Shown here piece after piece: positions 25,354 through 35,483 of a stretch of DNA of 64,000 bases. Position 1 is the stretch's first letter; each line of letters opens with the position of its first letter. Origin of the DNA: Antrihabitans auranticaus (GTDB lineage: Bacteria > Actinomycetota > Actinomycetes > Mycobacteriales > Mycobacteriaceae); the NCBI RefSeq assembly GCF_016481275.1, contig NZ_JAEMNW010000001.1, forward strand, positions 1,081,531 through 1,145,530, given 5' to 3'. The notes beneath the pieces were generated by a model. That model was not told where the DNA came from. It did not search any database and saw nothing but the letters and a program-made list of their open reading frames with translations. The position numbers and the translations under genes were made by a program.

Positions 25354-26184
25354 TTATCGCGCGTTGTTGTTCTTCTCGAGTGGAAAACATGTCTCGCAGA
25401 AGTCTTCGCCGAATGCGGAGAGCCGCATACTCTTCCGGACGATCTTGGGAACGCGACCGGCTTTCTTCAATGCCTCGCTCACGTTCGGCTGGACTTCGAC
25501 AACCATATACAGGCTCAGCTCGGTCGGCTCGTCGGAAACCCAGACCAGTCCGAGGCGAACCAAGTTGACCAGATACGACTTCGCACGCTCGGGGCGGCGG
25601 CAGCCGGCCTTCTCCGGAACCATGCTCAGATTCGACGCAATTGTTTCCGCGCCGATGTTCAACGGGCGGTTCGTCCGGACATCGACACACGGCTGCGGAC
25701 CGTTGTTTGCGAGATACCGCAGGATCCGCGCTTCGTCGGGCGCCAACTCGTCGAGGATGCGTGCGTACGCGGGGTGCAGTTCGTCGGAGCTGTAGACATC
25801 CGCCGACATCGCGAGCAGCGCCTCGCCCTTTTTGCGCAACTCTTCCGGCGTCGACGCACCGGCGGTCAGCGCGGCCATCGGACTCGACTGCGGCAACTGC
25901 AGGCTCGACGGCACATAGCTGACGATCTCGCGGACAGAGCCCTCGGTGACTCCGAGCGTGTTCCGCACGAGCGTCTGAATGGCCGACGACGCCATCTCCG
26001 CGATCTCTGCGTTGGATTCACCGTCCATCGCCGCCTGCACGATCTGCCTGCCGATGTCTACCGCCGAACCGCCGGCTCGCCACGCTGATCCCGCGACCAG
26101 ACTCGCCAACCGGAATCCACCGCGAAGCAGACGTGCTTCGTTGCTGATCTGACGCTGACCGGGTACTGCGATTTCGTTGCTCAT
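25354..26184 (-). CDS. Abi_alpha (DUF4393)-like protein, copy A
   Basis: 276 residues. The N-terminal half is amphipathic/helical (LLRGGFRLASLVAGSAWRAGG). The central segment LHPAYARILDELAPDEARIL matches the DUF4393 'abortive infection alpha' signature, then LVNLVRLGLVWVS, then a C-terminal FGEDFCETCFPLE with CxxC. The name comes from family annotation; no anti-phage role is shown. The start is one of three tandem ATGs (26190/26187/26184); the last has the best spacing to AGG. The stop of the upstream DUF445 gene overlaps these ATGs, so expression is coupled. It is paralogous to the gene ending at 35483. Confidence 0.78.
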   Translation of the reverse strand: MSNEIAVPGQRQISNEARLLRGGFRLASLVAGSAWRAGGSAVDIGRQIVQAAMDGESNAEIAEMASSAIQTLVRNTLGVTEGSVREIVSYVPSSLQLPQSSPMAALTAGASTPEELRKKGEALLAMSADVYSSDELHPAYARILDELAPDEARILRYLANNGPQPCVDVRTNRPLNIGAETIASNLSMVPEKAGCRRPERAKSYLVNLVRLGLVWVSDEPTELSLYMVVEVQPNVSEALKKAGRVPKIVRKSMRLSAFGEDFCETCFPLEKNNNAR

Positions 26185-26186
26185 CA

Positions 26187-27464
26187 TCATCCTGGGGGAA
26201 AAAGCGCTAGGTGGAGGAAGCCTGCAAACGCGCCGAGGACCCCACCGTGCACGAAGAGTAACCACTCGTCCTGCTTGACCGCCGCACGAAGCATTTGGCC
26301 GAAATCCTCGTTGCTGAGTTTACTCATCTGAGTTGTGACGAAGACGCTGATCTTGCTCGCTTGCTTGTCCATGAACTCCGAGTCGACAACGACGTTCGGC
26401 ATGAACTCGAGGGCGGTGGGAATTACCGACGACTTCATGCGCTCGTATTCGGCGCTACCGATAGCAGTTTTGACGGCGACCCGGGCCCGGCCGACCGCCG
26501 AATCCACAGTCTCGTGCATCACCGTCTCGAGTAACTGCATTGCGCGGTCGGAGCGGGGGCCGTGCATGAGTTCGTCGGCCATGTTCTCCAGCGTGATGAC
26601 TTCTTTGGAAAACATCTCGCCGAACCCGACGGCGATCTCGTCGCGGCGCTTGAGCAGCAGACCTTGGCGCCACGGAATCCACTTGCTGCGATCGACAGGC
26701 TCGAAAATCATCGTGAGACCGATGTAGTTGACGATCCAGCCGATGATCACGCCACCCAGCGGCAGCACCCACCAGTAGGGCAGTACCTGCAGGACCGCGA
26801 CCAGGACGAAGCCCATCGGCAACCCGAAGTAGAAGCCGAAGTTCTGCATGAACCGCAGCTCTTTGGCACCCATAGTGCGGAAGATGTCGTTCAGCAGCTT
26901 CGGGTTCTGCGTGAGGATCCGGATCGCCATGAACTTGGCGTCGATCAGGTCGGTGAGATGCTCGCCGATCGCATCGGTGATCTTGCTCGCGTTGGCCGGA
27001 AGTTCGGCCTCGACCTTCTTGTAGACGAGTTCCTTCGCAAAGCTCGGCATGTTGTACCAGAGCCGCGGGTTCTCCTTGATCATGATCTGGTCGACGAGAC
27101 CCCTGACTTCGGGCGTCATGACGCTGACGAAGTACTCCGCAATGGTGTCGGGCTCGAGCTCGCGATAGAAGTCGGAAATATTGCCCAGTTTGACGAGACT
27201 CTTGTCGACGGCGATGCTCGCCATCTTCTCGGCCCGCGACGGGACCATCCCCTGCCAACCGAACCGGTGACCATCCTTGAAGGTCGGCAGCACCTGGATG
27301 CGCCGCGGCCAATAGGGAAACAGGAATTTCAGACCCGGCACATGAAAGCCGCGGAACTCGATCGGCACGAACAACATGAGGACACCGGTCCAGTTCGTGA
27401 TGTACCCGATGACTCCTGTGAACAACGGGACGGTGATCAGTTCCATCATCAAATGCTTATCCAC
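26187..27464 (-). CDS. DUF445-type membrane protein, copy A
   Basis: 425 residues. GTG at 27464 has AGGAGG 6 nt upstream. An N-terminal membrane segment with the signature ELITVPLFTGVIGYITNWTG is followed by a long soluble helical part. A central pair of hydrophobic segments (GFVLVAVLQVLPYWWVLPLG and VIIGWIVNYIGLTMIFE) and a C-terminal hairpin WLLFVHGGVLGAFAGFLHL complete it. DUF445 proteins (YheB/YjiN type) have no settled function. It is very close to copy B (30626) and more distant from copy C (33125). It is translationally coupled to the Abi_alpha-like gene and divergent from a universal stress gene. Confidence 0.85.
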   Translation of the reverse strand: MDKHLMMELITVPLFTGVIGYITNWTGVLMLFVPIEFRGFHVPGLKFLFPYWPRRIQVLPTFKDGHRFGWQGMVPSRAEKMASIAVDKSLVKLGNISDFYRELEPDTIAEYFVSVMTPEVRGLVDQIMIKENPRLWYNMPSFAKELVYKKVEAELPANASKITDAIGEHLTDLIDAKFMAIRILTQNPKLLNDIFRTMGAKELRFMQNFGFYFGLPMGFVLVAVLQVLPYWWVLPLGGVIIGWIVNYIGLTMIFEPVDRSKWIPWRQGLLLKRRDEIAVGFGEMFSKEVITLENMADELMHGPRSDRAMQLLETVMHETVDSAVGRARVAVKTAIGSAEYERMKSSVIPTALEFMPNVVVDSEFMDKQASKISVFVTTQMSKLSNEDFGQMLRAAVKQDEWLLFVHGGVLGAFAGFLHLALFPPG

Positions 27465-27584
27465 GAACGAACCACCTCCTCGAAGACTCGGGCACGCGAA
27501 CGATACCTTGCCCGAGTCCGATTCCGAGACTCCGAGGGCCTCCACCTGGGAAAACGTGTCCAATCGAACACCGCTGCGTGGCGC

Positions 27585-27598
27585 CGGTGGTAGCGTCG
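27585..27598 (+). promoter_or_regulatory. Shared promoter-like box upstream of universal stress gene A
   Basis: CGGTGGTAGCGTCG occurs identically here and at 31954-31967, in both cases upstream of a universal stress gene. It contains TAGCGT, a TANNNT -10 candidate about 80 nt before the start codon. Confidence 0.4.
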
Positions 27599-27677
27599 GG
27601 CAGCAGTTCGACCGTGCTTCGAAAGCCGGGAAAAGGCGACCGTGCCAGGTGTATCAGAGACACTCGAAGGGCGACTG

Positions 27678-28475
27678 ATGGACGCGTATCCACGAATCGT
27701 GATCGGCGCAGACGGCTCCCCCGAAACCTCGCTCGCGGTCGAAATGGGCGCGGTTCTCGGGTTGCGTCTGAAGGTTCCGGTCACCGTGGTCACGGTGTGG
27801 GACGGATTCACCAACGTCCCCGACCCGCAGAGCCTGGAATGGGCGCGCGGCATTTCCGCGGCCGCGGCTGCTGTCGTGCGTGAGGTCGGCGTCGCGGACG
27901 TCACGACTCACGAGCCGACCGGGTCCGCCGCAGACGTGCTGATCGATTACGTCGACGACCAACCGGAGTCACTCCTTGTGATCGGCGGCTCCAGTCTCAG
28001 CAGCCCGAAAGACCGTGTTGTCGGGAGCGTCGCCAACCGCCTTTCCCATCACAGTCCGGCCGACGTCTTCTTCGCGACGAAGCGGCTTCCCGCGAGCTGG
28101 GGCGCAGTCGGTCTCACGACAGACGGCTCGTCGACGTCGCGCCTCGCTGTCCGACGCGGGCTGAAACTTGCACTCGCGGTCGGCGCAGCACCGCACCTGG
28201 TCACAGTTGCCAAGGACCGCGAGGAGGGCAGCAGGCTGATGTCCGCCGCGATCGGCGAACTCGATCTCGACGAGCCCGGGCTGCAACTCGAGCAAGACGT
28301 CCTGATCGGTCTGCTGGCCGCAAAGACCCTGGTCGACAACAGCGCCGACTACGACCTTCTGGTCATCGGCAACCGCGGCATGAGCGGGCCGTCACGACTG
28401 CTGGGATCCGTCGCGAACAAGGTCACGCACGGACTCGAAACAAATCTGCTCCTGGTGAATACAACCCGCGACTGA
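27678..28475 (+). CDS. Universal stress protein, tandem UspA domains, copy A
   Basis: 265 residues, two UspA domains (about 1-135 and 145-265). Domain 2 has the ATP-binding signature VIGNRGMSGPSRLLGSVANK (G-x2-G-x9-G-S type); domain 1 has VIGGSSLSSPKDRVVGSVAN, a partly degenerate version. It is probably a cytosolic ATP-binding stress or dormancy factor. ATG at 27678 is preceded by GAAGGG; a GTG at 27642 would add 12 residues. It is divergent from DUF445 copy A across about 210 bp and paralogous to the gene at 32072. Confidence 0.9.
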   Translation: MDAYPRIVIGADGSPETSLAVEMGAVLGLRLKVPVTVVTVWDGFTNVPDPQSLEWARGISAAAAAVVREVGVADVTTHEPTGSAADVLIDYVDDQPESLLVIGGSSLSSPKDRVVGSVANRLSHHSPADVFFATKRLPASWGAVGLTTDGSSTSRLAVRRGLKLALAVGAAPHLVTVAKDREEGSRLMSAAIGELDLDEPGLQLEQDVLIGLLAAKTLVDNSADYDLLVIGNRGMSGPSRLLGSVANKVTHGLETNLLLVNTTRD

Positions 28476-28638
28476 TTCGCGTGCTTGTGCGGCGGCACCT
28501 AGTGTGACGCGCGCCTCATTCTGTGGTCGATGGCGTGCCGCGAACGTCGAATAGCTGCCGATAACCGCTGTTCGAAGCCTTGCGCCGCAACGATTGTGGC
28601 AGCGGTCACAGACCCCCGGAGTACTGAGAGGGCGGTCT

Positions 28639-28695
28639 CTTTCCCCTTCCATCCGGACTCTGGAACCTCGAGACTCGGTTCTACAAGGTACGAAC
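28639..28695 (+). promoter_or_regulatory. Leader element L1, homologous to 29107-29164
   Basis: About 57 nt upstream of the first small membrane gene align with the leader of the second. Shared blocks are CTTTCCC, TTCCA, GG(A)..CTC, TCGA, GGTT-TA-AAG and GAAC. The conserved GAAC ends 54 nt before the ATG here and 56 nt before it in the second copy. Confidence 0.6.
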
Positions 28696-28748
28696 TTCCG
28701 CGCAAACCCCGCCGGCCATTCACCTGAAATCCTGACAAAGGAGAGACC

Positions 28749-28970
28749 ATGTCTTCGCTTCCGATTCTGATCGTCGCGTACTTCTTCAGTGCGGTCGAGC
28801 TTGCGTGGAGCTACGCCTGGCTGGTCCTGCCGCTGTCCGTCGCAGCCTGGTTGCTGCTCTTCGTCCCCAGCGAAAAGTGGGCGTCGATCCGATCCTCGAT
28901 CGCTAACGCGTTCGGCCCGCGCACCGCGCGGGTAACCCTCGACAAGCGTGTGGCCGCTTTCAGCCGATAA
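28749..28970 (+). CDS. Small membrane protein, twin copy 1
   Basis: 73 residues, ATG preceded by AAAGGAGAG. Residues 4-40 are continuously hydrophobic (IVAYFF, AWSYAWLVLP, AWLLLFVP), fitting a tight two-helix hairpin or one long helix. A basic cytoplasmic tail (WASIRSS, then ARVTLDKR) follows. It is closely similar to the 80-residue protein at 29220: AYFF, AWS.AWLV.P, AWLLLFVPS and W(A)..IRS are shared. No family is recognised. It has its own leader and intrinsic terminator, so it is probably a monocistronic and possibly abundant transcript. Confidence 0.75.
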   Translation: MSSLPILIVAYFFSAVELAWSYAWLVLPLSVAAWLLLFVPSEKWASIRSSIANAFGPRTARVTLDKRVAAFSR

Positions 28971-28996
28971 TCGGCCCTTGGCGTCCAAACGCAGCG

Positions 28997-29033
28997 GCAC
29001 CCCCGACAACGGCGTCGGGGGTGCATTTTTTTT
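28997..29033 (+). terminator. Rho-independent terminator of small gene 1
   Basis: An 11-bp perfect stem GCACCCCCGAC/GTCGGGGGTGC (28997-29007, 29014-29024) with a 6-nt loop is followed by A and eight T's. Confidence 0.92.
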
Positions 29034-29106
29034 GCCTTCGGAATACTGAATTCCGTTGCTCATGTGCGCGCGCTCACAAACGTGGGGACCATTGTGAATG
29101 CCGACG

Positions 29107-29164
29107 CTTTCCCTTCCAATCGGGAACTCCCAAGATCGACAATAGGTTGTAGAAGATATTGAAC
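29107..29164 (+). promoter_or_regulatory. Leader element L2, homologous to 28639-28695
   Basis: Second copy of the conserved leader block, ending 55 nt before the ATG of the second small membrane gene. A shared promoter or RNA control element is likely. Confidence 0.6.
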
Positions 29165-29219
29165 ATGACGCCAAAGCCGACGCTGTTCATCTATTTTTGA
29201 CAACTCGGGGAGGCACCAA

Positions 29220-29462
29220 ATGGCTGGAATTCCGATCGTGATAGTCGCGTACTTCTTCGGCGGCGTTTCCTGGGCATGGAGCCACGCTTGGCTCGTGGTT
29301 CCCGCGCTGGTGGTCGCCTGGCTCTTGCTGTTCGTGCCGAGCAGTACCTGGGCTCGGATTCGATCGACACTGGTTGCACCACTGCGACGTTCGCCGCGCG
29401 TGGAGGCGCCGGCGGTTTCGCTGCACAAACGTGACGGGCGCGAACTGATCCACAGCCGCTGA
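29220..29462 (+). CDS. Small membrane protein, twin copy 2
   Basis: 80 residues, ATG preceded by GGGGAGG. The hydrophobic core (IPIVIVAYFFGGVSWAWSHAW, then LVVPALVVAWLLLFVP) and basic tail mirror copy 1, with a longer C-terminus ending in KRDGRELIHSR. Gene, leader and terminator are all duplicated relative to copy 1, so the pair arose by duplication of a complete transcription unit. Function unknown; it might be a membrane-active peptide or a small subunit of the neighbouring DUF445 proteins, which is inference. Confidence 0.75.
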   Translation: MAGIPIVIVAYFFGGVSWAWSHAWLVVPALVVAWLLLFVPSSTWARIRSTLVAPLRRSPRVEAPAVSLHKRDGRELIHSR

Positions 29463-29479
29463 CTCAGAAAATTCCGAAC

Positions 29480-29514
29480 GCACCCCCGGGCAAATAGCCT
29501 GGGGGTGCTTTTTT
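29480..29514 (+). terminator. Rho-independent terminator of small gene 2
   Basis: A 12-bp stem with one GU pair, GCACCCCCGGGC/GCCTGGGGGTGC (29480-29491, 29497-29508), is followed by six T's. The GCACCCCC/GGGGGTGC part is identical to terminator 1. Confidence 0.92.
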
Positions 29515-29652
29515 GTGGGCTCGAGAAAGTGGCGCGTCAAGCTAGGCTCCGATCGCGCTGCGATCACAATTTCGCGCCGGATGTCTCCTGCGCCACACAA
29601 TTCGGCATAATTCACGGCGATCGTATATTTCGATATCCCATTCGGAGGGCGC

Positions 29653-30264
29653 ATGGTCACGAGCACGCCCGCACGGCGGGTCCTGCTGGCCATCGCCGCC
29701 GCGCTTGCCGCACTGCTCGTCGCGTTCGTCGGCGTGGCCCTGCTCGCAGTCCCGATCAAAGGGACGAGCATGGAACCGACGCTGCACGAAGGCGATCGAG
29801 TCGTGGTCAATCCCTTCGACAGATCGCCCGACGTTCGTCGTTTCTCCATCGTCATCGGTCGCTTCAGTCGCAACGGTGCCGAGGTCGTCAAACGGGTGAT
29901 CGGCCTGCCGGGCGACCGTGTCCGGATCGAGAAGATCGGCGTACGGCCAGGCATCGTGTCGGTCCAGCCAGGTGGCACCGGACCCTGGCAAGTCGTCGAC
30001 AACCCCGCTTGGCACGACCGCTGGGGTCAGTCCGCGTCCAATTGTTGTACTGACGCCGGCAAGCTGACAAATGTCGCGACTCCGCAGGTAGTTCCCCCAG
30101 GCATGGTGTTTCTGCTCGGCGACAACTTCGCCTCGTCGGATGATTCCCGCGCGCACGGGTTCGCGCCTCTCGAGCTGATCCGAGCGACCACTTCGTGGCG
30201 CATCTATCCGCTCGGCGCGATAGGCCGCCTCTCGGACGACGTCACTCTGACCCCGGTTCCGTGA
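29653..30264 (+). CDS. Signal peptidase I (S26 family)
   Basis: 203 residues. One N-terminal membrane anchor (about residues 9-33), then box B IKGTSMEPTLHEGD with nucleophile Ser39, Lys80 in VVKRVIGLPGD as general base, and LGDNFASSDDSRAHG (box E). The catalytic domain is extracytoplasmic. It is smaller than the housekeeping LepB of mycobacteria and lies away from the rplS/rnhB locus where lepB is usually found, so it is probably an accessory peptidase dedicated to local substrates. GGAGGG precedes the ATG. Confidence 0.88.
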   Translation: MVTSTPARRVLLAIAAALAALLVAFVGVALLAVPIKGTSMEPTLHEGDRVVVNPFDRSPDVRRFSIVIGRFSRNGAEVVKRVIGLPGDRVRIEKIGVRPGIVSVQPGGTGPWQVVDNPAWHDRWGQSASNCCTDAGKLTNVATPQVVPPGMVFLLGDNFASSDDSRAHGFAPLELIRATTSWRIYPLGAIGRLSDDVTLTPVP

Positions 30265-30625
30265 ATTCGTCGATCGATATCCGTATCGGCCCGAAACAAT
30301 TATCCCGGCATTTGCCGCGACCGCGCGTCACAGTTATCGGTTCCGCGGGTCTTCGCGAATTCTCCGCACCGCAAACATGCAGCAAGCGAATATCCTCGCA
30401 GCGATTTCCGACGGAGGTATTTACCCGCCCGCAGTTTCGCGACCCGCCCCGCGCCACGACCGAACTCGTTCATCGTGGCCCGCCGGGACTTGCTGCGGTG
30501 CTAGTTTGACCTTGGCCGACAGCAGCAACTGGTCTTGACACCCCGGCACGCCGCCGGTCAACCTCTGCGGATACCGTGTGCCGGAGCCAGAGGGCTTGTC
30601 GTTTGCCGTCTGGTTAGGAGGTGCC
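30265..30625. other. 361-bp intergenic region upstream of DUF445 copy B
   Basis: No convincing coding frame, hairpin terminator or repeat was seen. A TTGACA hexamer is present at 30535-30540 but lacks a well-spaced -10. It presumably carries the promoter of DUF445 copy B. Confidence 0.5.
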
Positions 30626-31912
30626 GTGCTTCACCAATACAACACGCTCCTGATGGAGCTCATCACGGTGCCGCTGTTCACGGGCGTGATCGGGTACATC
30701 ACGAACTGGACCGGCGTGCTGATGTTGTTCAAGCCCTTGGAGTTCCACGGCTTCCGACTTCCCGGCCTGCGACTGCTCTTTCCGCTGCTTCCCAAGCGCA
30801 TCCAGGTACTGCCGCTGTTCCGCTCGGACGGCCGCCTCGGCTGGCAGGGCATCGTGCCTTCGCGCGCAGACAAAATGGCGAGCCTCGCAGTCGACAAAGG
30901 CCTCGCAAAGCTCGGCAGCGTGTCGGATTTCTACCAGACGATGGAACCCGACAAAATTGCAGCGCATTTCACCAAGGTGGCGGAAAGCCAGATTCGCGAA
31001 ATTGTCGAGAAGATCATCGAACGCGAGAATCCTAATCTCTGGCGCAATCTGCCGACTCCGATCAAAGAAGCGGTGCACGCGCGCGTCAAGCAACAACTGC
31101 CGGAAATCGTCGAAGAATTGGCCGCCAATATTGGCGACAATATCGACGAGCTGATCGACGTCAAACTGATGGTTATCAAACACCTCAGCTCGAACCCGCA
31201 ATTGCTCAACGATCTCTTCATGGTCATCGGCCGCAAAGAGCTCACCTTCATGCAGAACTTCGGCTTCTACTTCGGCGTTCCCATGGGCTTCGTGCTGGTT
31301 GCGTTTCTCGAGTTCGTGGCGCGCGAGTGGTACGTACTGCCCGTCGGCGGCATCATCATCGGTTGGGTCGTCAACTACATCGGCATCTCGATGATCTTCG
31401 AACCCGTGTTCCCGAAGTGGTATTGCCCATGGCGCCAAGGACTTCTGCTCAAACGGCAGCCCGAAATCACAGTGCACTACGCCCGCATGGTTGCCGAAAA
31501 CGTCATGACCCTCGAGAACATCGGCAACGAGCTGATTCACGGACCGAGTGGTGATCGCACCTTCGCCATCCTCGAACGCACTCTCCGCCCCGCCACCGAC
31601 AAGGCGTTGGGGCCGGCGCGACTCGCGGTGAAAGTAGCGGTCGGAACGAAAGAGTACGACCGCATACGGGACTCGATGGCGCCGGAGGTCTCCGCTCTGG
31701 CGCCCTTCATCTACGAGGATGCGGACTTCGGCAGCGAACAGGCCGAGAAGATTAACGACTTCATCGCCCGGCAGATGGCCGCGATGGGACCGGACGACTT
31801 CGTTCAACTACTTCGGTCCGCCATCAAACAAGACGAGTGGCTGCTATTCGTCCACGGCGGTGTCCTGGGCGCGTTTGCGGGCCTCCTGCATTTAGCAATT
31901 TTCGGCGTCTGA
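30626..31912 (+). CDS. DUF445-type membrane protein, copy B
   Basis: 428 residues. GTG at 30626 has AGGAGG 4 nt upstream; the frame to 30578 is not needed. It is nearly colinear with copy A: ELITVPLFTGVIGYITNWTG, LGWQGIVPSRADKMAS, FMQNFGFYFGVPMGFVLVA, VLPVGGIIIGWVVNYIG, and the C-terminal QDEWLLFVHGGVLGAFAG. An N-terminal anchor, a central hairpin and a C-terminal hydrophobic segment flank long helical soluble regions. Function unknown. No Abi_alpha-like gene follows it directly; a universal stress gene does, 159 bp downstream. Confidence 0.85.
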   Translation: MLHQYNTLLMELITVPLFTGVIGYITNWTGVLMLFKPLEFHGFRLPGLRLLFPLLPKRIQVLPLFRSDGRLGWQGIVPSRADKMASLAVDKGLAKLGSVSDFYQTMEPDKIAAHFTKVAESQIREIVEKIIERENPNLWRNLPTPIKEAVHARVKQQLPEIVEELAANIGDNIDELIDVKLMVIKHLSSNPQLLNDLFMVIGRKELTFMQNFGFYFGVPMGFVLVAFLEFVAREWYVLPVGGIIIGWVVNYIGISMIFEPVFPKWYCPWRQGLLLKRQPEITVHYARMVAENVMTLENIGNELIHGPSGDRTFAILERTLRPATDKALGPARLAVKVAVGTKEYDRIRDSMAPEVSALAPFIYEDADFGSEQAEKINDFIARQMAAMGPDDFVQLLRSAIKQDEWLLFVHGGVLGAFAGLLHLAIFGV

Positions 31913-31953
31913 CCCCGACAAGAATTTCTGAACCGCGCCACCGCGCCATCGCT

Positions 31954-31967
31954 CGGTGGTAGCGTCG
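31954..31967 (+). promoter_or_regulatory. Shared promoter-like box upstream of universal stress gene B
   Basis: Identical 14-mer to 27585-27598, including TAGCGT, about 105 nt before the start codon of the second universal stress gene. Confidence 0.4.
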
Positions 31968-32071
31968 TGCGCGTCGTGCTGGCGCTGATCTCACCGACTC
32001 GCGACGCACTGACCAGGCGAAACAATTCGAATGCCCTCTTTGCGTTGCAGGCGGACCGGAAGGAAGAATTT

Positions 32072-32854
32072 ATGGAGTCTTACGCGCGCGTCATCGCCGG
32101 GACGGACGGATCGCCAGACGCAAGTGCGGCGGTACGCCTTGGCGGACGCATCGCAGGCAAGCTAGGTGTTCCGTTCGAGGTAATCGTCGCTTACGACGGC
32201 GACAACGGGCGCGACCGCAGTTGGGCAGAAGCGACTGCCGCGGCGGCCGAAACATTGGCCAAGACGTCCGGCGCCACCGAAACCTCGGCTAAAGCCGTCG
32301 CGGGCGAGGCCGACGAGATTCTGCTCGCTGCCGCGGAAGTCCAGCCGGAAGCCCTGATCTCGGTCGGATCCGCAGGTCTCTCGAAGGGTGCGAGCCGAAT
32401 CTTCGGCAGCACGTCGAACAAGCTTGCGCACCACAGCCTTGCGGACGTCCTGTTCGTTCGCGATCCACTGCCGACCGCCTGGAACTTCGTCGCGCTCGCA
32501 ACCGACGGCTCCGATACTTCTGTCAAAGCCGCCCAGCGCGGACTTATCCTCGCCCGCGCATTGGACTCCCGTCCGCGCCTGATCACCTCGGCAAAGAATC
32601 AAGAGGAAGGCAACAAAATCCTCGCCGACGTATCCACCAAGATCAGCGCGAACATCGGCGTCGATATCGAGCAGGAGGTGCTCGAAGATTCCGGTGCCGG
32701 CGGTGCGCTCATCAGCAAAGCGTGGAAGTTCGAGATCGTCGTTATCGGCAACCGCGGAATGAGTGGGGCGTCCCGGCTGCTCGGGTCGGTTGCCAACAAG
32801 GTCACCCACGGCATCGAGACAAACTTGTTGCTGGTGAACACAACCCGGGGCTGA
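32072..32854 (+). CDS. Universal stress protein, tandem UspA domains, copy B
   Basis: 260 residues. Domain 2 carries VIGNRGMSGASRLLGSVANK; domain 1 has SVGSAGLSKGASRIFGSTSN. It ends ETNLLLVNTTRG, almost the same as copy A (ETNLLLVNTTRD), so the two are recent paralogs. ATG at 32072 has GGAAGGAAG upstream; the frame back to 31967 is not supported. It sits between DUF445 copies B and C on the same strand. ATP binding is expected from the motif. Confidence 0.9.
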   Translation: MESYARVIAGTDGSPDASAAVRLGGRIAGKLGVPFEVIVAYDGDNGRDRSWAEATAAAAETLAKTSGATETSAKAVAGEADEILLAAAEVQPEALISVGSAGLSKGASRIFGSTSNKLAHHSLADVLFVRDPLPTAWNFVALATDGSDTSVKAAQRGLILARALDSRPRLITSAKNQEEGNKILADVSTKISANIGVDIEQEVLEDSGAGGALISKAWKFEIVVIGNRGMSGASRLLGSVANKVTHGIETNLLLVNTTRG

Positions 32855-32877
32855 CGGCTCTCGATTCACCGAGCGCA

Positions 32878-32913
32878 CACGCGCCCCGCACTGTTGGTTC
32901 CGCTGGGCGCGTG
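32878..32913 (+). terminator. Possible hairpin terminator after universal stress gene B
   Basis: A 9-bp stem CACGCGCCC/GGGCGCGTG (32878-32886, 32905-32913) with an 18-nt loop and no U-tract. Moderate support only. Confidence 0.35.
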
Positions 32914-33124
32914 AACTCGGATCATGTTGCGGGCCAACGCATTCGAGCTCGCAACCGCAGCCCAGGCGCGCCGGGCCGCACGGTTGGATAAATCCCTACA
33001 AACCAGGTCGTGCATCCATGTTTATGGGTCATTTCCAGGACGGCACGGCGGGCTACAGGCCAAGATAGGGTGCACCACCGCTAACAGACACCAGCTTCAT
33101 GCGCAACGCTAAGGGAGCGACGCT

Positions 33125-34522
33125 TTGTCCCACCTCACGAGCCTTCTAGCCGAGGGCGGAATACCGACGAACATCCTGCAAATTCCGTGGGGCGACATCA
33201 TGGAATCGGTCGGCCTGCCACAGGACAAGTTTCTGCTCGAGCTGATCACGATTCCGATTTTCAGTGCGATTGCCGGCCTGCTGACCAACTGGACCGGCGT
33301 GCTCATGCTGTTCGCGCCCGCACGATTCACCGGCTTTTACACACCGGGTGTCAAAACCCTTTTCAACTTCCTGCCGCGAAAAGTGCAGGTGCTACCGATC
33401 TTTGCGCCCGGCGGAATTCTCGGTTTCCAGGGTTTCATTCCGGCTCGTGCGGAGAAGATGGCAGCGATCGTCGTCGATAAAGCGGTCTACAAGATCGCAA
33501 CGATCAACGACATCTTCCAGGAAATGGATCCGGACGCGATCGCCGAACATGTCGCTGAGTTCGCCAAGGAGGACATTCGCGGCATGACGGCGCAGATCAT
33601 GGAGCGAGATCATGCCGAGTTGTGGGCAAGCCTCACCCCCCAGGTCCGCGAGGTGGTGTTCCAGCGTGTCGAAGCCGAACTACCCGGAATCGTCAAGACT
33701 GCGTTCAAGAAGGTCGGAGACAACGTCGACCAACTCGTCGATATCAAGTTGCTCGCCGTCGGCTATCTTCGAGCGAACCCCGACGTCCTGAAGGACCTGA
33801 TCTACGGCGTCGCCCGTCCCGAACTGAAGTTCATGGTCAAGATCGGCTTGCTCGGCTTCCCGTTCGGTGCGGTCCTGGCAGTGTGGCTGCACTTCTACCA
33901 CCACATTCCGCTGATCGGCGCCATTCCCGGTTGGCTGATGGTGCTGACCGGCGCCGCCCTCATCGGCATCGTCGTCAACATCTTCGCAATCCGCATCGTG
34001 TTCACGCCCGGTGAGCCCCAGCCGCGGTACAAGTACCTGTGGAAGCAGGCGCTGCTCGCGAAGCGGCAGCCCTCGGCTGCAGCCGATCTGGGCCATGCCT
34101 TTGCCTACCAGGTGCTCACATTGCCTTTGATCGCCAACGAGATCCTCAACGGACCGCGCGGCGACAAGACACGCGGCCTGCTCGACAACATCGTCAGCAC
34201 CGAGGTCGACCGGATCCTCGGACCCCTCAAGCAGGTCGTCCGCGTTGCAGTCGGCGGCGGTGAGTTCGACGCGATCCGGATGGACACGGCCGGCGCGGCG
34301 CTCGAGTTCGCACCGCAGTTCCTCGAGGACGAAGAGTTCGCAAAGGTTCAAGCCGCGAAGATCGACAAATTCGCCACGGAAAAGCTGCGCGCGCTTCCGC
34401 CTGGCGAGTTCATGGAGATGATCTATTCCGCGATCGAGCAAGACGCCTGGCTTCTCTACCTGCACGGCGGCCTGCTCGGAATCGTCGTCGGTGCCGTTCA
34501 CATTCTGATTTTTGGAGCCTGA
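33125..34522 (+). CDS. DUF445-type membrane protein, copy C
   Basis: 465 residues from a TTG start preceded by AAGGGAG. It has a longer N-terminus than copies A and B, then ELITIPIFSAIAGLLTNWTG, LGFQGFIPARAEKMAA, a central hairpin (LLGFPFGAVLAVWLHF and MVLTGAALIGIVVNIFAIRI) and a C-terminal QDAWLLYLHGGLLGIVVGAVH. It is clearly homologous to A and B but more diverged. It ends one base before the Abi_alpha-like gene, repeating the DUF445-Abi_alpha order seen in copy A. Function unknown. Confidence 0.85.
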   Translation: MSHLTSLLAEGGIPTNILQIPWGDIMESVGLPQDKFLLELITIPIFSAIAGLLTNWTGVLMLFAPARFTGFYTPGVKTLFNFLPRKVQVLPIFAPGGILGFQGFIPARAEKMAAIVVDKAVYKIATINDIFQEMDPDAIAEHVAEFAKEDIRGMTAQIMERDHAELWASLTPQVREVVFQRVEAELPGIVKTAFKKVGDNVDQLVDIKLLAVGYLRANPDVLKDLIYGVARPELKFMVKIGLLGFPFGAVLAVWLHFYHHIPLIGAIPGWLMVLTGAALIGIVVNIFAIRIVFTPGEPQPRYKYLWKQALLAKRQPSAAADLGHAFAYQVLTLPLIANEILNGPRGDKTRGLLDNIVSTEVDRILGPLKQVVRVAVGGGEFDAIRMDTAGAALEFAPQFLEDEEFAKVQAAKIDKFATEKLRALPPGEFMEMIYSAIEQDAWLLYLHGGLLGIVVGAVHILIFGA

Positions 34523-34523
34523 G

Positions 34524-35483
34524 ATGACCCACGCCGCACCTGAAAACCCGGACACCGAGTCGGGCGAAGCTGCCCCCGCAGATCCCGATAAGCAGTTGAA
34601 CGAAGCTGCTGCCGCCGCCGCGGGCAACTCCAGCCTCCTCAGCGACATCGCGAAAGCCGGTGTCGATGCAGGTAAAGACCCCAACGACGCGGCGGGTTTG
34701 GCCAAACTCGCGGGCAAGTCGTTCATGCGCGCGATGGGCGCCCTCACGAAGGGCGGGATCGACACCGCCAGCGAAATCGCGCACGACGTTTCTGCGGGTG
34801 AGTCGATCACCGGCATCGTCGACCAGCGCGTCGAGCAGGTGCGGTCTGCCGCGTGGAGCGTACTGGGACTCGAAGGCGGCGGAAAGGGTGTTCCGAAGCT
34901 GAAGGGCGCATCGTTCCGTGACCTGAAGGCGCACGGCGACGCACTGCTCGACAGTTCATGGAACATCGCCAATCAGCCCCGCGAAGAGCATCCGGCGTTT
35001 GCTCAGATCCTCACCGCGTTGACGCCGGACGAAGCGCGCATCCTGCGCTTTCTCGCGGTGTCGGGTCCGCAGCCCGCGATCGACGTCCGGACCAAGACGC
35101 CGTTCGGCGTCGGTTCGGAGCGTCTCGCCGGTGGCATCAACATGATCGCGGACATGGCAGGCTGCGCGTGGCCGGACCGGGATCAGCACTACCTCGCCAA
35201 CTTGAACCGCCTCGGCCTGGTCCGCTTCTCCGAAGAGCCGGTCGAAGATTTCCGGCGGTACTCGTTGCTCTCGGCCCACCCGAACGCGATGGCGGCGGCG
35301 GACAAGGCCAAGAAGGTCATCGAGGTGTACCGCAGCATCTACCTGTCGCTGTTCGGCCACCAGTTCTGCGAAGCGTGCTTCACGATCGAGGGCTACGACG
35401 CCGGCGGCTGGAGCACATACGACCCGGGTGACAAGTACATCGGTAAGGGTCCGCGCGTGTACAAGAAGAAGGAAGCTCACTAA
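34524..35483 (+). CDS. Abi_alpha (DUF4393)-like protein, copy B
   Basis: 319 residues. An acidic, low-complexity N-terminus (about residues 1-40), then helical segments, EHPAFAQILTALTPDEARIL (DUF4393 signature), YLANLNRLGLVRFS, FGHQFCEACF (CxxC) and a C-terminal tail of about 35 residues rich in Gly, Tyr and Lys absent from copy A. ATG at 34524 follows GGAG within the DUF445 copy C stop region. The conserved partnership with DUF445 in two copies argues for a physical or functional pair. No catalytic motif is obvious. Confidence 0.78.
   Translation: MTHAAPENPDTESGEAAPADPDKQLNEAAAAAAGNSSLLSDIAKAGVDAGKDPNDAAGLAKLAGKSFMRAMGALTKGGIDTASEIAHDVSAGESITGIVDQRVEQVRSAAWSVLGLEGGGKGVPKLKGASFRDLKAHGDALLDSSWNIANQPREEHPAFAQILTALTPDEARILRFLAVSGPQPAIDVRTKTPFGVGSERLAGGINMIADMAGCAWPDRDQHYLANLNRLGLVRFSEEPVEDFRRYSLLSAHPNAMAAADKAKKVIEVYRSIYLSLFGHQFCEACFTIEGYDAGGWSTYDPGDKYIGKGPRVYKKKEAH

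Follow-up and report, generated by a model that had tools for sequence, protein, structure and literature searches.

The 64,000 bp stretch of Antrihabitans auranticaus DNA analysed here (contig NZ_JAEMNW010000001.1, 1,081,531 bp to 1,145,530 bp; hereafter the window) encodes, between 25354 bp and 35483 bp, an island of ten genes in which divergent DUF445 membrane proteins adjoin proteins of the Abi_alpha family (DUF4393, PF14337). Two such pairs were found, each with the DUF445 gene first. Pair 1, on the reverse strand, consists of D445A (26187–27464 bp; PF04286, 52.6 bits) and AbiA (25354–26190 bp; PF14337, 149.5 bits) and is divergent from all other island genes, which run from USP-A through AbiB on the forward strand. 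Pair 2 consists of D445C (33125–34522 bp; PF04286, 21.4 bits) and AbiB (34524–35483 bp; PF14337, 125.9 bits). A third DUF445 gene, D445B (30626–31912 bp, forward strand; 62.8 bits), has no partner here. The overlapping and 1 bp junctions that the initial annotation had described on opposite strands could be read directly: the TGA stop codon of D445A (26189–26187 bp) shares the sequence ATGA with an ATG of AbiA at 26190 bp, an overlap that holds only if this first of three AbiA ATGs is the start, and the TGA of D445C (34520–34522 bp) is separated by one base from the ATG of AbiB at 34524 bp (TGA-N-ATG). Profile scores and reading frames also showed that all of the genes it had listed (three DUF445, two Abi_alpha, two universal stress protein (USP) genes, twin small membrane proteins and a signal peptidase) were present.

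D445A and D445B passed the PF04286 gathering cut-off of 33.8 bits and matched the profile in two stretches each. D445C fell below the cut-off and is a divergent relative, 42% identical to D445B over 427 aligned residues. Four hydrophobic segments were found in D445A and five in D445C. The subfamily to which these proteins belong, of about 425–465 amino acids with a low-scoring DUF445 signature, differs from the YheB/YjiN-type canonical DUF445, which is encoded by a distinct gene in the same genome (396.5 bits). In the DUF445 model, which contains long helices, four helices are predicted to span the membrane and two large domains, also helical, to lie on one side of it; its comparison with the PDB gave no confident match. 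AbiA and AbiB were above the PF14337 gathering cut-off of 29 bits, with the first 32 or 46 of the 196 profile positions unmatched, and no hydrophobic segment was found in AbiA. The AlphaFold2 model of AbiB was confident over residues about 131–300, and Abi_alpha is predicted to be soluble with a C-terminal winged-helix domain; by analogy with this model, the C-terminal domain of AbiA would also be a winged helix. The fold is common to the Abi_alpha domain and the uncharacterised protein ABO_0056 of Alcanivorax borkumensis (PDB 3H35). Among the candidates scored, 1,052 proteins matched AbiB at E ≤ 0.001.

Analysis of 200 genomes of the order revealed PF14337 in 36 and a D445C protein in 39; both were present in 35 genomes, Abi_alpha alone in one and DUF445 alone in four. 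In a sample of 246 genomes of the class, with D445B as the query, 16 genomes encoded both, two Abi_alpha alone, three DUF445 alone and 225 neither; five positive genomes were common to the two samples. When the order sample was counted by genus (n = 61), both were found in 17, either one alone in one genus each and neither in 42. Fisher values for these three tabulations (2e-33, 3e-20 and 6e-13) indicate scale only because the genomes are related. As a control, PF04286 at large matched 154 of the 200 genomes of the order sample, with a strong canonical hit in all except G004, G033, G103 and G153; the Abi_alpha link is therefore with the divergent DUF445 subfamily and not with the whole family.

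The two genes were also adjacent. A total of 91 distinct Abi_alpha places were listed, of which 87 were fetched with flanking DNA (one each in G478, G493 and G612, and the second of G535, were left out), and adjacency was scored with profiles made from the fetched loci. A divergent DUF445 gene lay within 400 bp of Abi_alpha in 71 of the 87 places and on the same strand in 69, with DUF445 first in 40 of these same-strand pairs and Abi_alpha first in 29. Seven further loci, obtained by a scan of named genomes, contained another 11 Abi_alpha places (nine adjacent, eight same-strand). In the phylum sample PF14337 was found in 8 of 198 genomes, and DUF445 adjoined Abi_alpha at each of the three strong places that lay beyond the class (G474, G535 and G572) and at the second place of G474. 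The only pair seen outside the phylum was on plasmid pHP-187 of Marinobacter adhaerens, in which DUF445 follows Abi_alpha after 19 bp and Abi_alpha matched PDB 3H35 (E 2.5e-7). The main check proposed with the initial annotation, whether the DUF445-Abi_alpha module exists beyond this genome, thus came out in its favour, as the module was seen in different genera, families and classes. There is good support for a functional partnership between DUF445 and Abi_alpha in actinobacterial genomes.

Several DUF445 genes in other contexts were recorded. The Marinobacter DUF445 gene beside Abi_alpha (L093, 5956–7177 bp) is annotated as two overlapping pieces. A DUF445-like membrane protein of Acinetobacter (L096, 4247–6140 bp) is preceded by a 172 amino acid protein without a Pfam or PDB match, which is possibly another DUF445 partner. 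In family f14, one to three DUF445 genes lie apart from the Abi_alpha pair (L106, 7893–11671 bp; L108, 7882–9117 bp; L110, 7692–10341 bp; L116, 7375–11845 bp) and adjoin an apparent metal-uptake ABC transporter, the frames of which were judged by eye.

The initial annotation had attributed the repeated genes of the island to expansion by duplication. Multiplied copies are indeed present; a recent expansion is not what was found. The two Abi_alpha proteins are 36% identical, the DUF445 proteins 39–57% and the USPs 44%, and each Abi_alpha copy has close relatives of its own in other genera, so the copies are old. The Abi_alpha tree (83 rows, with the short row L076 dropped) contained three groups: one of 40 rows, in 33 of which DUF445 comes first (support 100/98); one of 32 rows, in 21 of which Abi_alpha comes first (100/99); and one of 11 rows (99/89), which unites every one of the nine stand-alone forms tested from phages or plasmids with two unpaired actinobacterial proteins. 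Rows without a same-strand partner numbered five in the first group and 10 in the second. With either gene order the DUF445 partner has been retained or acquired; the tree has no root and a very long Marinobacter branch, and so gives no direction. Distances between Abi_alpha proteins correlated with those between their DUF445 partners at 0.91 over 56 pairs (L044 and L050 each had one DUF445 that was counted twice), at 0.89 over 32 DUF445-first pairs and at 0.93 over 15 thinned Abi_alpha-first pairs. Much of this cross-genome correlation arises from shared descent alone. Species descent does not explain the correlation of 0.966 among five pairs, because all five are in one genome; this value was reached by two of 120 relabellings, including the true one. 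D445B probably lost its Abi_alpha partner, since its relative in Skermania (L008, 11069–12385 bp) is followed by an Abi_alpha of its own (12298–13239 bp).

In family f41, PF14337 was found in 22 of 61 genomes, to which G335 and G353 add two, giving 24 carriers, all fetched except for G612. Thirteen of these genomes, from four genera, have the pair at the dnaK-grpE-dnaJ-hspR locus (L081, L083, L084, L085, L087, L088, L152, L153, L154, L156, L157, L158 and L159). It is on the same strand as the dnaK operon in 12 of the 13 loci and convergent in L158, and clpB was within the fetched stretch in 10. The distance between the hspR and DUF445 frames was 115 bp in L085 and about 12.5 kb in G335. The box bound by HspR (HAIR) has the consensus CTTGAGT-N7-ACTCAAG, as given in PMC6102357 and PMC9775585. 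A search for TTGAGT-N7-ACTCAA with at most one mismatch located boxes upstream of dnaK in 12 of the 13 loci (not L158) and upstream of clpB in 10 of 10, and none immediately before DUF445 in these pairs; the window had no match at up to two mismatches. These 13 f41 pairs lie with genes of the actinomycete HspR/HAIR regulon, with no HAIR box directly before the pair itself. No heat-shock genes were present within the fetched stretches around the pairs of the remaining f41 carriers, in either gene order.

Two related arrangements were observed around DUF445 genes alone. On a Tsukamurella plasmid record (L098, 5026–9495 bp) an MmyB-like regulator, DUF445, groES and groEL are consecutive, with no annotated Abi_alpha. 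In genus g3, HspR-type boxes with one mismatch (L104, 13609 bp; L105, 2278 bp) precede a gene judged by eye to encode a Lon-like protease, about 4–6 kb from a partnerless DUF445.

The remaining island genes, all on the forward strand, encode USP-A (27678–28475 bp; PF00582 in two stretches, 112 bits), small membrane proteins 1 (28749–28970 bp, 73 amino acids) and 2 (29220–29462 bp, 80 amino acids), signal peptidase I (29653–30264 bp; TIGR02227, 96.7 bits) and USP-B (32072–32854 bp; PF00582 in two stretches, 85.7 bits). Both USPs have two domains; their genes had been called tandem and are not neighbours. Co-occurrence of USP with the pair, which had also been proposed, proved to be local: at tblastn E ≤ 1e-4, USP homologues were beside the pair only in the window, in L006–L009 (Antrihabitans and Skermania) and in L033, from the same genome as the window. 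The small membrane proteins have two hydrophobic segments each and are mutually 52% identical; among the fetched loci, homologues of the two were confined to Antrihabitans and Skermania, those of protein 1 to L006–L008. Strong terminator-like hairpins with a T-run follow genes 1 (28997–29024 bp) and 2 (29480–29508 bp), so that each of the two genes (together 28749–29508 bp) resembles a single-gene unit with its own terminator.

The scan of named genomes yielded seven relatives, from Antrihabitans, Skermania and Mycolicibacillus. Synteny extended over the whole island in A. stalagmiti (L006) and over a large part of it in A. stalactiti (L007, which ends at the fetched limit) and Skermania sp. 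(L008). Release factor 3 and a SnoaL-like gene (window, 22095–25312 bp) remain linked to a relative of AbiA in genus g3 and Nocardia farcinica (L044, L050, L099), where this relative is divergent from a DUF445 gene. DUF6230 and DUF6114 genes were beside the pair in L007 (1455–5728 bp), L008 (2555–6521 bp), L045 (5035–6032 bp) and L090 (8687–12847 bp), and DUF6114 without DUF6230 in L081 (10394–13615 bp). This company spans different families, and signal peptidase I joins it in four of the five loci; the window retains the signal peptidase, with the twin small membrane proteins in the DUF6230/DUF6114 position. Among the loci with a signal peptidase next to the pair are L081 and L090; L089 gave a partial match.

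Mce (MlaD) genes were found at L033, L092 and the syntenic L102, L104 and L105, where the DUF445 genes are of differing subtypes. In L033 (1173–10858 bp) the order along one strand is Mce genes, ABC ATPase, Abi_alpha, DUF445 and USP, and the ATPase ends 33 bp upstream of the Abi_alpha frame. PAP2 phosphatase homologues were found in the f2 loci L037, L038, L040–L043 and L109 (Pfam checked for L041 only), and seven f14 loci, all from one genus, have a patatin-DUF3376 gene after the pair (checked against Pfam in L054 only). Such neighbours, together with the long helices of the DUF445 model, would fit an envelope or lipid maintenance complex without regulation, in which DUF445 would handle lipids or brace the membrane and would be assembled by Abi_alpha, a cytosolic adaptor with a winged helix that binds protein and not DNA. 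We consider this rather unlikely, as every lipid-linked neighbour is restricted to one or a few lineages, some proximity to Mce genes is expected because Mce operons are common in these genomes, and the DUF445 model found no confident counterpart in the PDB. It is highly improbable that the two genes have no joint function and are chance neighbours or parts of a shared duplicated block; certain DUF445 and certain Abi_alpha genes are unpaired, but the co-occurrence, the adjacency, the two opposite gene orders and the Marinobacter pair all argue against it.

The pair could instead serve phage defence, with DUF445 as membrane effector or anchor and Abi_alpha triggering early lysis. The model for this is the stand-alone Abi-alpha of Enterococcus faecalis prophage 6, which causes premature lysis of infected cells (PMC6356687) and which is of the same Pfam family as the window proteins, with most of the profile including the C-terminal end in common. 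PDC-S47, a PADLOC candidate without a curated cut-off, matched AbiA and AbiB weakly (43–66 bits, C-terminal part only), phrog_2232 was matched at 1.4e-16 and 1.2e-10, and a minority of paired copies is on plasmid records. The pairs are not purely chromosomal, because DUF445 and Abi_alpha are neighbours on two actinobacterial records that are classed as plasmids (Tsukamurella, 0.4 Mb; Nocardia farcinica, 2.7 Mb, divergent). However, whereas the full-profile Abi_alpha of a Pseudoalteromonas plasmid (209.7 bits, positions 2–196) matched 76 phage records, AbiB had zero matches in 50,697 phage records and pattern scans of IMG/VR with alignments of either family found no relative. PADLOC returned nothing for the other eight of the ten island proteins. 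The paired Abi_alpha proteins, those of the window included, belong to other clades than the tested forms from phages and plasmids (the tree does not contain the E. faecalis protein), and no DUF445 was annotated in eight regions around stand-alone Abi_alpha genes, in which the plasmid gene tables are incomplete. While the Abi-alpha defence system of PMC6356687 is a single gene mostly on prophages or other mobile DNA, the window forms are coupled to DUF445 and occupy syntenic sites in related genera, and other pairs lie at the f41 heat-shock locus. Defence thus has less in its favour than a response to envelope stress, and we regard it as distinctly unlikely.

Of the stress or defence module that had been proposed, the stress part is the one towards which the f41 heat-shock locus and the local USPs lean. 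A membrane-stress device is likelier than phage defence because the pair is at heat-shock chaperone genes in about half of the f41 carriers, and from this locus, the local USPs and the lipid-linked neighbours it may reasonably be inferred that the pair answers envelope stress. Our preferred, still tentative, reading is that the conserved DUF445-Abi_alpha pair is a membrane-anchored envelope-stress switch; that Abi_alpha is its membrane-tethered regulator is a guess from the modelled fold and topology. DUF445 would sit in the cytoplasmic membrane and hold Abi_alpha there. Damage to the membrane or to membrane proteins by heat, lipid or redox stress would change the state of the complex, and Abi_alpha would then act, most probably by regulating envelope repair through binding to DNA or protein. 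Chaperones and USPs would accompany the switch as further stress functions in certain lineages. The multiplication of the module in this genome is old, and the third DUF445 probably lost its partner.

A bolder extension, which we think rather unlikely, is that these pairs represent a new class of stress switch, with a winged-helix protein tethered to the membrane. This class would be ancient in actinobacteria, would also occur in at least one gammaproteobacterium and would be wired to DnaK/HspR in one family; phage Abi-alpha would be its cut-loose relative, a stress trigger turned into an early-lysis device. If the envelope-stress reading is right, annotators of many actinobacterial genes have been misled by the name "abortive infection", and the phage gene would either have been borrowed from a host envelope-stress device or have served as a source for one. 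DUF445 and DUF4393, two large families without a settled function, together gain a partner and a testable setting, and the f41 heat-shock locus offers a direct handle for experiments on the pair.
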